64,000 nt of DNA, taken from NCBI GenBank assembly GCA_022508345.1, contig JAFLVK010000002.1, positions 248,001-312,000 on the forward strand, read 5' to 3'. This stretch comes from Clostridiales bacterium. Lineage in GTDB: Bacteria; Bacillota; Clostridia; Christensenellales; CAG-314. Both the position numbers and the translations under genes were made by a program. The notes beneath the pieces are model-generated. The model was given only the letters and a program-made list of their open reading frames with translations, was not told the DNA's origin and did not search any database. Shown here piece by piece: positions 9,287 through 54,487 of the stretch (position 1 is its first letter; the number at the start of each line of letters is the position of its first letter).

Positions 9287-9362
9287 GGCTCCTTAGTCTA
9301 GTGGCCTAGGACGTTGGCCTCTCACGCCGATAACATGGGTTCGAGTCCCATAGGAGTCACCA
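9287..9362 (+). tRNA. trnE: tRNA-Glu (anticodon CTC)
   Basis: A full cloverleaf is visible. The acceptor stem GGCTCCT pairs with AGGAGTC. The D stem is GTCT/GGAC, and the anticodon stem TTGGC/GCCGA encloses the loop CTCTCAC with anticodon CTC. The T stem is ATGGG/CCCAT around TTCGAGT. The 3' CCA is encoded in the DNA. CTC reads GAG; a TTC-anticodon tRNA-Glu would be expected elsewhere in the genome. Two partial copies of the 3' end follow at 9435 and 9621. Confidence 0.95.
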
Positions 9363-20942: not shown

Positions 20943-22709
20943 TTACTTGATGTCAGTTATCTTTTTACTAAGCTCGGACAGCTCGGTAAGTAAAGAGCTG
21001 TCAGCCGGGTTGTTTTTGATTTTTGCCATGAGCTCTTCACGCTTGCGCTTGAGCTTTTCCACCGTTATTATTCGCTTGCATTCCTTGAAATACCGTTCGT
21101 TCTTTTCCAAACGCTGCTTGGAAAAATCCAAGTCGAGAATCTGCCCGTACTGTTCGGGTGTACCGTTGGGGCACACCGTGTACAGCATATCCGTTGTTGG
21201 GGCTTCGTCTCGCTCCTTGCATGTGAGCAGATAGTCGTACAAATCGGATAAAAATGCCGAGTTGCATATTGGTTTTTCCTCTATTGTGGCGTAGCTTTCA
21301 CAACGCAACAGACACGCCGCAACAAAGTATTTCGCCTTGTCTTCGGGTGAGAGTTCCGTTACTGTAAGTTCCGGTAATGGCTCGTCTACCGTCTCTTCGG
21401 AAAGCTTACGGCGGAAGTAATCTTCGGAATAACCTGTCTTTAGCGACACTGCCGTGATGTAACGCGCCTGGCGCACGTCGTCCAAGGCCTTCAACATGAC
21501 AAGCGCCCCCTGTACGTACTTGGGCAATGCGTTGTTGCGCGTAGCTTGGTCGGGGCTGGCAATGTCAAATGAGGCATCCAACAGCTTCAATTTGTAGTCG
21601 GGCAAGGGTAACGCTTCCGTTATCAATTGCTCGAAAGCCTCTTTCCCGTATTTCTTGATGTATTCGTCGGGATCCAGCTTTTCGGGGACGGTCATGACAC
21701 GCACTTCCAGCCCTGCGCGGTCCAGTATATCCAGCCCGCGAACGGTTGCCTTTTGCCCTGCTGCATCGCCGTCGTAGCATATGTAAACAGTGTCCGTCAG
21801 TCGGGATAACCACTTAGCTTGGTTTTCCGTCAGCGACGTTCCCATGCTTGCCACCGCACTTTTGAAGCCTGCTTGGTACATGGCAATTACGTCCATGTAG
21901 CCCTCCACAACCACAAGGTTGTTGAGAGCCGTCTGCTGCTTTTGCTCCTTGGCAATGTTGATGGCAAACAGGTTTTGATTTTTCACAAACAGCGGCGTTT
22001 CCGATGTGTTTTTGTACTTGCCACGCTCGATTGTGCGCTGGTCCAGTCCCCTACCGCCAAAGGCAATAACCTGCCCCTGCATGTTGAATATGGGGATAAT
22101 TAACCTGCCGTACAACGCGTCGGTGTAGCCGTATTTACCGTTTTGAATAACTCCGCACTTTACACAGTCCTCAAGGTCGTACTTCTTGCTTTGCAAAAAT
22201 TTCACCAACGAATCGTTGTCGGGAGAGTAGCCAATGCCGAACTTTTTGACGGTGTCGGCGTCAAAGCCACGCTGTTCGATATAGGCGCGAGCTTTTGCGC
22301 CCGACGGACCGTAGTAACACTTGTAATAGAAGATAGCCGTATCGCGACAAATCTGCAAATAGACGTCTTTTTTCTTTTTACGTTCGTTAAATTCCTTGTC
22401 CTTGCGCTCACCTACCGTTTCGGGCATCTTGAGGTTAGCGCGTTTGGCAAGAATTTCCAACGCTTCCATAAAGGTGCATGACTCGTACTTTTCGACAAAC
22501 TTGATTACGTCTCCACTTTCGCCGCAACCGAAGCATTTGTAAATTTGCAAGTTGCGGTTGACGTTGAAGCTGGGAGTTTTTTCGCCATGGAAAGGACAGC
22601 GAGCCATGAAGTTAGCCCCGCTGTGTCGAAGTTCCAGATGTGAGCCAATTACGTCAACGATGTCGTTAGCGCGCTTGACCTGTTGTATGAAATCCGTCAA
22701 ATCTGCCAT
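20943..22709 (-). CDS. dnaG: DNA primase
   Basis: DnaG lays down RNA primers at the replication fork. The N-terminal CHC2 zinc finger (Cys38, His41, Cys59, Cys62) is complete. The TOPRIM core has [10 protein letters not shown] and [11 protein letters not shown]. The C-terminal region, which contacts the helicase DnaB, is present. Length (588 aa) is normal. AAGGA precedes the start. It is the first gene of a leftward operon with rpoD, trmK, a zinc-ribbon protein and a phosphoesterase. Its promoter must lie in the AT-rich 22710-22875 stretch, but no single -35/-10 pair stands out. Confidence 0.96.
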
Positions 22710-22875: not shown

Positions 22876-22938
22876 AACATATTTTTGCTAGTGAAAGTAC
22901 GCGGAGCAGGACTTGAACGGAGCAAGCAAAAATATGTT
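22876..22938. repeat. Perfect 13-bp inverted repeat
   Basis: AACATATTTTTGC (22876-22888) is matched by its exact inverse at 22926-22938, with a 37-nt loop. It stands just before a terminator-like hairpin and may be part of the structured element that follows, or a separate mobile-element scar. Confidence 0.6.
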
Positions 22939-23182
22939 AAAAACCTCGGGCGTGTACCGAGGTTTTTTCCTTGCGTGAGGGGGTGCGGGGGAGAGCGGCG
23001 GTCATCGCCCCTGCAGTCAAAAAAACGAAGGACGCGGTAGCATCCTTCCTTACTAGTCCGACCGCGTGGAAGCTTGACCTACAGCGATTGTTGCGAAGCC
23101 AATCGCGTGAAGCGTCAGCTCACAAAGTGCAAGGTTGCAAGGCTTAGCCGCAGTCAACCTAGTCCACGCGCGTGTGGTCGGA
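22939..23182 (+). ncRNA. Structured intergenic element, copy A
   Basis: This 244-nt stretch shares fold and key sequences with 52446-52252 on the other strand. (1) A long hairpin has loop GCGTGTA closed by CGG/CCG (loop 22950-22956, stem 22939-22949 with 22957-22967). (2) A purine-rich CCTTG...GGGGG block leads into a G-rich/C-rich hairpin. (3) A terminal multi-stem unit is closed by TCCGACC (23057-23063) and GGTCGGA (23176-23182), with inner helix GCGTGG/CCACGC and a 6-nt bulge GCGTGT. Helices differ in sequence between copies but keep pairing. It ends one base before the ntpD stop codon (opposite strand). The first hairpin has a T run and could terminate rightward transcripts. Function unknown. 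Confidence 0.55.
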
Positions 23183-23809
23183 TTAACTATTTAAGATTGT
23201 TTTCACCTTCATTAGCCGCACCGTCGCTGCGCGTTCGCTTTCGTCCAGCTTCATCTTGATGTACTTGATGGTTTCGCTCAGTTGCGGAATCATGATGTTC
23301 TCAAGTGCGTTTACGCGGCGCTTGTTCTTTTCGATTTCTTCTGCTAGCATATTGCATGTTTTTTCCGTTTCGGCTAGCTTCACCAGCTTTACAAGCACAG
23401 CGGACAGCCCCCTTACGGAGTCGTCCAGTTGCTCGGTAACGGACAAAAAGCTGTACGGGTAAATGTCTCCGCTTGACGTTTCGGAAATTTGAATTTCAGG
23501 CACATCTATTCCCATAATCTTGCGCTTGGAGCAGGTTAGCGTTACCTTCCTCGCGGGCATAAGGATAGCCTCCTCCACCACGCGGGCGTCCGTTGTCGCC
23601 TTTGCTTCGGAAAACGCCGAAAGCGCGCGGCAAAGTTCCCTTTCCGCATCAAGGCGCAATCGCTTGTTTTCTTCAGCAAGGGTTATGAAACGGCGAATCA
23701 TCTCGTCCGTTTTGTCCTTTAACAGTTTGTGTCCACGCGTTGCGGTCTTGAGACGTGCTTGCAGACGTTTCATTTCCATACGCGTGGGGTTGACATTCAT
23801 TACAGCCAT
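23183..23809 (-). CDS. ntpD: V-type ATPase subunit D (central stalk)
   Basis: Subunit D forms the rotating central shaft of the V1 head. The 208-aa protein has the family's long N- and C-terminal helices, starting NPTRMEMKRLQARLKTATRGHKLLKDK, a strong family signature. GGAGTG precedes the ATG, and it begins 5 bases after ntpB. It is the last gene of the operon, and its stop codon abuts a structured intergenic element rather than a simple terminator. Confidence 0.93.
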   Translation of the reverse strand: MAVMNVNPTRMEMKRLQARLKTATRGHKLLKDKTDEMIRRFITLAEENKRLRLDAERELCRALSAFSEAKATTDARVVEEAILMPARKVTLTCSKRKIMGIDVPEIQISETSSGDIYPYSFLSVTEQLDDSVRGLSAVLVKLVKLAETEKTCNMLAEEIEKNKRRVNALENIMIPQLSETIKYIKMKLDESERAATVRLMKVKTILNS

Positions 23810-47996: not shown

Positions 47997-48092
47997 TAGT
48001 AACTAACCGTGCTTCCTTACGCAAGTGCTAACTTGACAAGTTCAAAGGGACTCTCTCAGCCGAACCATACCGCTCGGCACCCCCAGCAAGGA
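47997..48092 (-). promoter_or_regulatory. TPP riboswitch (THI element)
   Basis: Leftward reading shows the conserved aptamer parts in order: CTGGGGGTGC, GGCTGAGA, CCCTTTGAAC, then GCACTTGCGTAAGGAAGCA. These are the core of the thiamine-pyrophosphate aptamer. It stands between a consensus promoter and the thiT terminator hairpin, so thiamine sufficiency should shut off thiT. Confidence 0.95.
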
Positions 48093-48093
48093 T

Positions 48094-48122
48094 ATTGTAC
48101 TACTACTATAAATTATTGTCAA
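48094..48122 (-). promoter_or_regulatory. Promoter of the TPP riboswitch/thiT transcript
   Basis: Leftward TTGACA (48122-48117), 17 nt, TACAAT (48099-48094). Start near 48087, at the edge of the aptamer. Confidence 0.85.
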
Positions 48123-51680: not shown

Positions 51681-52244
51681 TTACAACCCGTTATTTGGCG
51701 ATTTTGTCCCGCCCGTCAAGTAGATTTTTATTTTTTCTTCGGCGGAGACAATGGCTCTTTGAACCGCCGATTTGGATTTGCCAAGGCTCTTTGCGCTGTC
51801 CCTCACTGTGAAATCCATGAAGTATTTTTGGTAAATGACGCGCTTTTCAAATTCCGTCAAGCACTGCATTGCCTGTTTGAGCATAGCTTGTGTTGAAGAT
51901 TGCTCCGCCACGTCGTCATCACTGGACAAGTTGAAGTAGTCGTCTATATTTTCCGAACGCCGTCGGCTTTCCGCACGGAGAGCATTCAACGCGACGTTTT
52001 GTGTGATTTTGCATATCCAAGCGTAGCCGTTTGTTTGCGGCTTGAACAGGTGCGCGCTACGGACAATTCTCAAAAAGCTGTCCTGCACAACGTCCTCGGC
52101 TGTGGCCCTGTTTTTCACAACGGACAGCGCAATGGACAGCATGCGGGCGGACACAAGGCGCGACAAACCCTCCAAGGCGTAAGTGTTGCCTTGGGAAATT
52201 TGCACAATAAAAATATTTATTTGAGCGCGCATTTCGTCCGTCAT
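51681..52244 (-). CDS. ECF-type RNA polymerase sigma factor
   Basis: The 187-aa protein has region 2 (ATAEDVVQDSFLRIVR ... YAWICKITQNVALNALR) and region 4 (LTEFEKRVIYQKYFMDFTVRDSAKSLGKSKSAVQRAI) and no other domain, which defines an extracytoplasmic-function sigma. Its likely regulon includes its own operon: the anti-sigma-like, VWA and DMGPKPS-type genes. The ribosome binding site GGAG lies within the last helix of a structured element just upstream, so translation may depend on that helix opening. Confidence 0.92.
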   Translation of the reverse strand: MTDEMRAQINIFIVQISQGNTYALEGLSRLVSARMLSIALSVVKNRATAEDVVQDSFLRIVRSAHLFKPQTNGYAWICKITQNVALNALRAESRRRSENIDDYFNLSSDDDVAEQSSTQAMLKQAMQCLTEFEKRVIYQKYFMDFTVRDSAKSLGKSKSAVQRAIVSAEEKIKIYLTGGTKSPNNGL

Positions 52245-52251
52245 AATAATT

Positions 52252-52446
52252 CTCCGACCAAACGCGAGGTGGGATTTTCCCCACTCTGTCGCAAGCTCCT
52301 CCGTTCTGAAAATCTATTTCCACCTCGGTCGGACTTTCAAGGTTGCGCCTGCCACGGCGCGAACGATGAAAGCCTTCGCTGGGGAGTGTCCCGCCCCAGC
52401 ATCCCCCACAAGGACGCAAAGATTCGGTACACGCCCGAACTTTGCG
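52252..52446 (-). ncRNA. Structured intergenic element, copy B (sigma-factor leader)
   Basis: Read leftward, 195 nt contain the same parts as 22939-23182. The hairpin with loop GCGTGTA closed by CGG/CCG has a long stem (CGCAAAG/CTTTGCG). A CCTTG...GGGGG block and the GCTGGGG/CCCCAGC hairpin follow. The terminal unit is closed by TCCGACC and GGTCGGA, with inner helix GAGGTGG/CCACCTC and bulge GCGTTT. The closing strand ends GGAG, 7 nt before the ATG of the ECF sigma gene, so it is also the ribosome binding site. A cis-regulatory role for the sigma gene is therefore plausible, though copy A is not placed in this way. Confidence 0.6.
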
Positions 52447-52496: not shown

Positions 52497-53399
52497 TTAC
52501 AGTATATTAAACATATCGTGCAACAAGTAGATTAGCCCGTACATCACAACCTGGCTAATGAAGTACACCCACAGAGAGCGTCTTCCGCAAAATGTAACAG
52601 GCGAAACGTACTTCGGATTGACAGATGGGAAGATACTTTTGCGTTCGCGGTAAATTGCTTTGCCCAGCACTACACCCACCAAAAACCAACCGAAATCGGG
52701 CAGGAAACTGAGGTAATCGCCACCGTACATAAACTTGCGGATAACGGCGTTGCGCCATTCGCTTTCGCCGAAAATCAGATTGAGCCAATTGACGTGCATG
52801 TATTTAGCGCAGTGTCCCAGCACCAACGCTGTCATGGTAATGGCGAAGAAAATCACGCCGAATATATTTTTTTGCCAGTTTTTAGTAAGCTTACTCCATA
52901 TCCACTCGATAACCGTGTACAGCAGCACCGACAGTGCAACGACGTGAATGACGTTGAAGTAGATTGTCAATTCTTCCTTTATCACTGCAGAGATGACGTA
53001 GGTTACAACAGAAAAAAGAATTGCAAAGGCGCACATCTTGATTGCACGCTTGCCGTTACTGCGGGAAAAACTGCAAGACACACCGCTTGTCAGTACAAAC
53101 ATGGTAACGAAAACGTCATGCGTTACGTTTCTTAACGCACCGCTGTAGTAAGCACTGCCCAATTTATACAGCCACTGAAACAGTGCCGTGTTGTAATCCG
53201 ATCTAAACCCGTAGTACACGTCCCACATGAAGTGGTCCCACACCACAAACAGTATCATCAAGCCGCGCACAAAGTCCACTTCCCATATGCGTTCACGCTT
53301 GGGAGTAGCTGCAAGCTCGTTTATTTCCGCTTCTACCTGTTCCGGAGTAGGTTGCTCGGATATAACATTATTCTTTTGTTCTTTGTTCTTTTTTCTCAT
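52497..53399 (-). CDS. Membrane acyltransferase, heparan-alpha-glucosaminide N-acetyltransferase-like (DUF1624)
   Basis: The roughly 300-aa protein has a charged N-terminus and about eight membrane helices. The hallmark VDFVRGLMILFVVWDHFMWD at the first helix is typical of the HGSNAT/DUF1624 membrane acyltransferases, whose conserved His in WDH is thought to be catalytic. In bacteria these may acetylate cell-wall or surface sugars. The ATG at 53399 is used because the longer reading from 53453 would run into mnmA. It follows mnmA by 14 bases. Confidence 0.8.
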   Translation of the reverse strand: MRKKNKEQKNNVISEQPTPEQVEAEINELAATPKRERIWEVDFVRGLMILFVVWDHFMWDVYYGFRSDYNTALFQWLYKLGSAYYSGALRNVTHDVFVTMFVLTSGVSCSFSRSNGKRAIKMCAFAILFSVVTYVISAVIKEELTIYFNVIHVVALSVLLYTVIEWIWSKLTKNWQKNIFGVIFFAITMTALVLGHCAKYMHVNWLNLIFGESEWRNAVIRKFMYGGDYLSFLPDFGWFLVGVVLGKAIYRERKSIFPSVNPKYVSPVTFCGRRSLWVYFISQVVMYGLIYLLHDMFNIL

Positions 53400-53413
53400 A
53401 TTTTTGTAAAATT

Positions 53414-54487
<1,074 letters not shown>

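Follow-up and report, generated by a model that had tools for sequence, protein, structure and literature searches.

The known system most similar to the element described here is that of the GTAG-tagged REP palindromes (REP, BIME and REPIN sequences, with the transposases TnpAREP/RAYT). As described in PMC8266576, REPs of E. coli are read as folded single-stranded DNA and require both the GTAG tag and a bulge in the stem; in one other REP system covered there, only the last two bases of the tag were strongly selected, with one substrate. GTAG-tagged REPs lie mainly downstream of genes and fall into subfamilies with alternative complementary stems, and the frequent G-T pairs of their stems have been taken as a hint of transcription (PMC3733652); the main text of this survey contains no word starting with 'firmicutes' or 'clostridi'.

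Like a REP, the element analysed here has an unpaired 5' tag ending in AG beside a hairpin with a bulge in its stem, is present in many copies, forms subfamilies with alternative complementary stems and is frequently placed near gene 3' ends. Unlike a REP, it has a tag of the form [G/T/C/A][T/A]AG that is not strictly GTAG, a 6-nt bulge on one side only and few G-T pairs, and in place of a palindrome of 20-40 bp it has units of 41 to about 170 nt within a multi-hairpin element of 0.2-0.3 kb, which includes a second hairpin with a GCGTGTA loop; nor was a REP transposase found for it among the 25 genomes of the genus. Because size and transposase set it apart from REP/RAYT, we term it a REP-like variant and not a member. 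Two other systems invite comparison. IS200/IS605 single-strand transposons have hairpin ends that are read on single-stranded DNA, as the hairpin ends of our element would be, and integron attC sites are folded sites with a conserved outer and a free inner helix, placed behind genes.

Our preferred reading, to which we give a probability of just under 0.6, is that we are dealing with a family of ~0.2-0.3-kb hairpin repeats, often at gene ends, which are likely a non-autonomous mobile element that would depend on a putative REP-transposase-like (HUH) enzyme able to recognise its folded single-stranded DNA. The literature on hairpin repeats that we searched does not name this element.

Layout of the copies and pairing of the end unit

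The window, that is, the whole 64,000-nt stretch of DNA that was analysed, holds two copies, arranged with their neighbours as follows.

Copy 1
20943..22709, - strand: DNA primase DnaG gene, on one flank
~22876-22938, + strand: upstream hairpin (hp0), recurring by blastn in two further copies of the own genome; paired in the RNA fold
22939..22967, + strand: hairpin 1 with the invariant loop GCGTGTA at 22950-22956 (sequence; loop/stem test)
22983..23017, + strand: G-rich/C-rich hairpin of the CCTTG...GGGGG block (RNA fold, sequence; limits approximate, from the fold)
23027..23048, + strand: small hairpin GAAGGA...TCCTTC (RNA fold; terminator scan)
23055..23182, + strand: end unit, starting with AG (sequence, alignment, DNA fold, covariance model)
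23057-23062, + strand: TCCGAC of the end unit
23063-23069 with 23164-23170, + strand: inner helix of the end unit
23171-23176, + strand: bulge CGTGTG of the end unit
23177-23182, + strand: GTCGGA of the end unit
23183..23809, - strand: ATP synthase subunit D gene (PF01813), on the other flank

Copy 2
51681..52244, - strand: ECF-type sigma factor gene, downstream
52253..52335, - strand: end unit, made up of AG, TCCGAC, inner helix CGAGGTGG-CCACCTCG, bulge CGTTTG and GTCGGA (sequence, DNA and RNA folds, covariance model)
52334..52372, - strand: hairpin CTTTCA...TTGAAAG (sequence, RNA fold)
52378..52400, - strand: G-rich/C-rich hairpin GCTGGGG...CCCCAGC (sequence, RNA fold)
52415..52446, - strand: hairpin 1 with loop GCGTGTA at 52428-52434 (sequence, DNA and RNA folds)
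52497..53453, - strand: HGSNAT-type acyltransferase gene, upstream

A first-pass annotation of this DNA had described the two copies by the GCGTGTA hairpin, the CCTTG...GGGGG block with its G-rich/C-rich hairpin and the terminal unit, all of which are present where it placed them; its limits hold with two amendments, copy 1 extending 5' to ~22876 and copy 2 ending at 52253. It had also noted a conserved 6-nt bulge. There is one, shifted by a base: the first base of the sequences it gave (GCGTGT and GCGTTT) pairs with the base following TCCGAC (C/G 25 times and T/A 9 times among 34 units), so the bulge proper is CGTGTG or CGTTTG. The end unit follows the plan AG-TCCGAC-[variable helix]-apex-[helix']-CG(T/C)NTG-GTCGGA, with an apex of variable length. 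When the window was scanned with R1, a covariance model of the end unit built from 34 units, the end units of copies 1 and 2 scored 58 and 50.1 bits and the third match had an E value of 1.6, leaving only two copies in the window. Folding z-scores were -3.9 for copy 1 as RNA and -3.9 for its end unit as DNA, and -3.1 and -2.6, respectively, for copy 2.

The covariation of the helices claimed in the first-pass annotation is borne out. Alignment A1 comprises 34 of 61 candidate rows, the others being 18 long-apex units (>=157 nt), two alternative readings of kept units, six rows with no more than 2/6 inner pairs and one near-duplicate. For covariation it scores 0.466, where shuffled alignments give 0.128 (sd 0.017) and slid partners 0.017-0.101; 95.2% of cells pair versus 77.1% when shuffled, and six of the seven inner pairs have changed in both arms. 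Further pair types number 14, which does not exceed the shuffles, 464/500 of them reaching that count. The outer helix of A1 is biased by the search, because rows were found via the outer letters, and the inner helix is not fully free of bias either, because the rows were hand-picked and six poorly pairing ones were left out as false. In a wider set of 129 matches, 99 have six Watson-Crick inner pairs; once those with <4/6 inner pairs are removed, 119 distinct units remain, whose 714 inner-helix cells are Watson-Crick in 682 cases, G-T in 9, A-C in 3 and otherwise in 20.

An arm-free scan, which fixes only the CG[TC]NTG bulge and requires perfect arms, returned 128 distinct units from 1.90 Mb of loci, many of which had been fetched as matches, and 0-10 with eight altered bulges; the value of 10 belongs to CG[AG]NTG, which takes in genuine CGATTG/CGAGTG variants. 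A scan of 45 unrelated loci (341,641 bases) gave 0 units. The 128 units carry 31 different inner arms and the outer arms CCGAC (111), CCGGC (7), TCGCC (5), CCGCC (3), CGGAC (1) and CTTGT (1), the last probably a chance hit. An unpaired AG precedes 124 of them, although the scan did not require it, and the two tag positions ahead of the AG (n=127) read G 52, T 40, C 19, A 16 and T 57, A 56, C 7, G 7. Hairpin 1 behaves in a similar manner. At loci not chosen by the hairpin-1 pattern, perfect 6-bp stems close 22 of 158 GCGTGTA sites and come in 9 kinds, of which TACTAT is probably due to chance; a control with 25 shuffled loops, 24 of them distinct, gave 6/1919, a single loop contributing 5 of the 6. 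These loci are not independent, because many were collected for their resemblance to a copy. In some copies (L118, L315-L322), one own-genome copy included, the GCGTGTA loop gives way to alternative hairpin-1 modules built on a CACGGACCTGCGCCG core.

The paired arms change together while almost no change is seen in the unpaired AG, in the bulge or in the loop GCGTGTA of hairpin 1. Free complementary stems combined with near-fixed exposed bases form the pattern that would be selected by a protein if it read DNA as a folded single strand. On this view, the exposed bases read by the putative enzyme would be those of the AG tag and the CG(T/C)NTG bulge, perhaps with those of the GCGTGTA loop as well; recognition limited to these would then allow the stem letters to drift freely as long as pairing holds. 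Strong covariation by itself is no proof of a structured RNA, because mobile DNA hairpins can yield the same signal. The first-pass annotation, which took the paired changes as selection on RNA or cruciform DNA structure, was right that the covarying structure is real; its lean toward structured RNA is not retained, and the cruciform option comes nearer to the mobile-DNA reading.

Dispersal and turnover of copies

The first-pass count of two copies stands for the window and falls far short elsewhere. The own assembly (G000; 1.40 Mb, 47 contigs, 94.87% complete) has 8 end units by covariance model; blastn with copy 1 found full copies, truncated copies and fragments there, and pattern searches returned likely right-end remnants among chance matches. 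Across the genus, 18 of 25 genomes, all compared as draft assemblies, have R1 matches at E<=0.1; these come to at least 194, with no more than 150 candidates scored in any one genome. The covariance-model search for homologues that had been suggested earlier thus found them well beyond the starting pair, and also outside the genus: of 297 genomes sampled from the order, 19 have matches at E<=1e-4, of which 12 belong to the genus and 7 to other families, the latter with at least 27 matches when 14 candidates were scored per genome. The distant units have different stem letters on the same plan; in G127 (L409) a GCGTGTA hairpin lies immediately 5' of a unit, and in G295 (L392) a head-to-tail series alternates between units and a GCGTGTA hairpin. 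By blastn with another own copy, 20 of 61 genomes were positive, namely the own genome and 19 of its 24 congeners, with 0/12 from other genera of the family and 0/24 from the rest of the order.

In named genomes the hairpin-1 pattern occurs in at least 113 stretches; among the matches listed, those from gut Clostridia carry the element, while many others look like chance, and the named records listed that have element-like flanks are MAGs of gut Clostridia, for instance those of the 'Lapin' series and a sheep-colon MAG. Centralia_MAG_18, a gammaproteobacterial MAG, has a different palindromic repeat with the same TTCGGGCGTGTACCGAA core (L074, L081, L089, L091, L111 and others).

Individual genomes tend to have amplified their own version. 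A single inner helix accounts for 10/10 units in G006, 6/6 in G010 and 11/15 in G152, and several subfamilies are present in G000, G004 and G022; median identity of units ranges from 0.60 to 0.96 within genomes versus 0.65 between them (111 units). Between species, copies are gained and lost. Among 22 ATP synthase D loci, units stand at the 3' end of the gene in G000 and G004, at its 5' end in G018 and at no others, and among the closest 13 ECF sigma loci only that of G000 has one. Behind typA, the stop codon is followed by a terminator in G011, by a terminator and then luxC in G021, and by the element and then luxC in G000, and in G005 another element subtype lies directly behind the stop. 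One copy is common to G000 and G011, with a paired change in the apex. Copies also occur head to tail. Of 36 neighbouring pairs, with places taken from part of the genus model matches, 22 have the same and 14 the opposite orientation, the latter arguing against strict lagging-strand insertion. No target duplication was established at the two window copies and no new insertion was seen; the distinct right flanks have no target consensus after GGTCGG beyond A+T richness.

Position beside genes and the RNA alternative

The position of the units calls for weighing another interpretation, in which they are structured RNA at gene 3' ends: the 3' UTR would fold after the stop codon into a terminator and mRNA-stability element, with the fixed loop and bulge bases bound by a protein. 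Several findings speak for it. Taking convergent ORFs of >=100 codons and measuring from the GGTCGG end to the start of the stop codon, 51 of 135 distinct right flanks have a stop codon within 12 nt, 44 of them at 0-5 nt, compared with 55/3000 random positions in the same loci. At copy 1 itself, the stop codon of ATP synthase subunit D begins immediately beyond the GGTCGGA end; hairpin 1 and the small hairpin are both terminator-like on the - strand, the direction of that gene (two sites vs 0.7 in shuffles), and an ordinary terminator hairpin is found at the ATP synthase D 3' end in G011 and G021 where copy 1 sits in G000. The copy common to G000 and G011 keeps its pairing through the paired change, which would fit selection on a resident RNA, and the mismatches in the inner helix favour G-T over A-C, 9 versus 3, small numbers for a strand test.

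The same counts, however, leave 84 of the 135 flanks without a stop codon within 12 nt (25 upstream of an ORF, 23 with the stop codon further away, 36 in neither arrangement), and copy 2 sits upstream of a gene with no terminator-like site inside it, those detected by the terminator scan falling outside the element. Particular genes are not lastingly tied to the element, amplification is lineage-specific, and G-T pairs are rare, at 9 in 714 cells. Considering the dispersal beside unrelated genes, the absence in sister species, the lineage-specific subfamilies and the rarity of G-T, a REP-like mobile DNA hairpin fits better than a host RNA, and we regard the RNA interpretation as unlikely; both stretches are copies of a dispersed modular hairpin repeat and probably do not represent a host RNA gene. 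Resemblance to intrinsic terminators, seen in hairpin 1 and the small hairpin of copy 1, likewise does not extend to the fixed loop letters, the covarying second unit, the dispersal or copy 2.

That no known RNA family is involved, as stated in the first-pass annotation, agrees with Rfam searches at gathering threshold, which returned only tRNA and TPP from the window and nothing from 8 loci with copies; at relaxed threshold, the best sub-threshold match was Phe_leader (34 bits, gathering 55), covering only the terminator-like hairpins. The two window matches are a tRNA at 9287-9359 (+) and a TPP riboswitch at 47997-48094 (-), with 61.6 bits (gathering 54.3).

Within the mobile-DNA reading, the gene-end position could have a consequence for the host. 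Behind a stop codon, the hairpins of the element might serve as the terminator of the gene, and if they do, the old terminator could be lost. The repeats make it possible to test whether a gene comes to use as its terminator an element that has landed behind it. At 52244-52260, the start codon of the ECF sigma gene is closely preceded in relatives by a conserved TACAATA-like stretch; in G000 the end of copy 2 occupies that place, so the ECF sigma promoter may have been replaced there.

Candidate movers

With covarying hairpins present in these Clostridia and their transposase missing, it becomes testable what moves REP-like hairpins when the REP transposase is absent. The Y1 transposase domain (PF01797) occurs in 12 of 25 genus genomes and is absent from G000 and 12 others, incomplete assemblies from which a gene could have been lost; four Y1 proteins scanned are of IS200 type, scoring 30-37 bits with the REP-transposase model, for which the cut-off is 80. 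Unlike IS200/IS605 elements, the copies have no transposase gene seen inside or beside them, and 0 of 20 genus IS200 (Y1) loci contained a unit. Reverse transcriptase gave no match in G000, and a unit was present in 0/5 of the reverse-transcriptase loci returned. Among the clusters listed, at most 40, for 3389 ORFs near motifs at 286 loci, judged from first residues and gene context, no transposase recurred as a neighbour; the largest (85 ORFs, 59 loci) seemingly represents readings across repeats. Since draft assemblies often lose repeated genes, a missing mover is weak evidence.

Viral carriage was considered and dropped: two end-unit patterns hit 0 and 5 viral stretches, the 5 without a paired inner helix, and the hairpin-1 pattern hit 7, with flanks lacking the element. 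Neither the 50,697 phage records nor the 72,556 plasmid records searched gave any blastn match to copy 1.

The element might instead be a passenger of ISL3-like miniature inverted-repeat elements, which, like it, are short and non-coding, its hairpins being cargo that is carried along when an ISL3 transposase works on terminal inverted repeats. Of 137 distinct right flanks, 20 do start with an ISL3-like repeat, placed immediately after GGTCGG (L309, L307 and L310 of G002, and others), and several G002 copies lie between inverted ISL3-like repeats, with a plausible 8-bp duplication TAAAAGAG, read by eye, at L309; in G002 and some other genomes, copies may simply ride inside ISL3-like elements. 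The transposase is above cut-off in 4 of 25 genus genomes, G002, G004, G012 and G020 among them. Yet it has no match in G000, a unit was found at only one of six ISL3 loci returned (L380), 117 of the 137 flanks have no such repeat, and the window copies are without terminal inverted repeats with 8-bp target duplication. The passenger idea also leaves the fixed AG, bulge and loop unexplained, and we consider it improbable.

More improbable still is an attC-type recombination site, at which a tyrosine recombinase would shuffle modules or genes through a folded single strand. The outer helix, bulge and free inner helix recall the attC layout, as does the location behind stop codons, and in 14 of 110 copies hairpin 1 is preceded, at a distance of 26-32 nt, by a right-end motif (17/110 within 110 nt), as if modules were joined at a fixed point. 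Gene cassettes, however, were not found, the attC boxes are absent, and the bulge plan differs. At the one candidate locus checked, a cassette at typA (luxC/luxE in G000, not in G011) was rejected, G021 having luxC there without a unit. The luxC and luxE family genes beside typA (PF05893, PF04443) lie at L009 1944-4741 (G000:C12), and luxC has matches in 6 of 25 genus genomes.

Returning to the REP-like mobile hairpin, a more far-reaching version of it is possible, which we hold with considerable doubt: an undescribed class of mobile hairpins, spread over several families of one order including gut Clostridia, might use a two-part code (a GCGTGTA-loop hairpin and an AG-tagged hairpin with a CGYNTG bulge), settle behind stop codons, take over the role of terminator and be moved by a single-strand enzyme unlike any known REP transposase. 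In some genomes other recurring modules are nested in or between copies, for example around CGCAAAATAATCTGCAAC...GCGTGGAATACCCG (L082, L109, L163).
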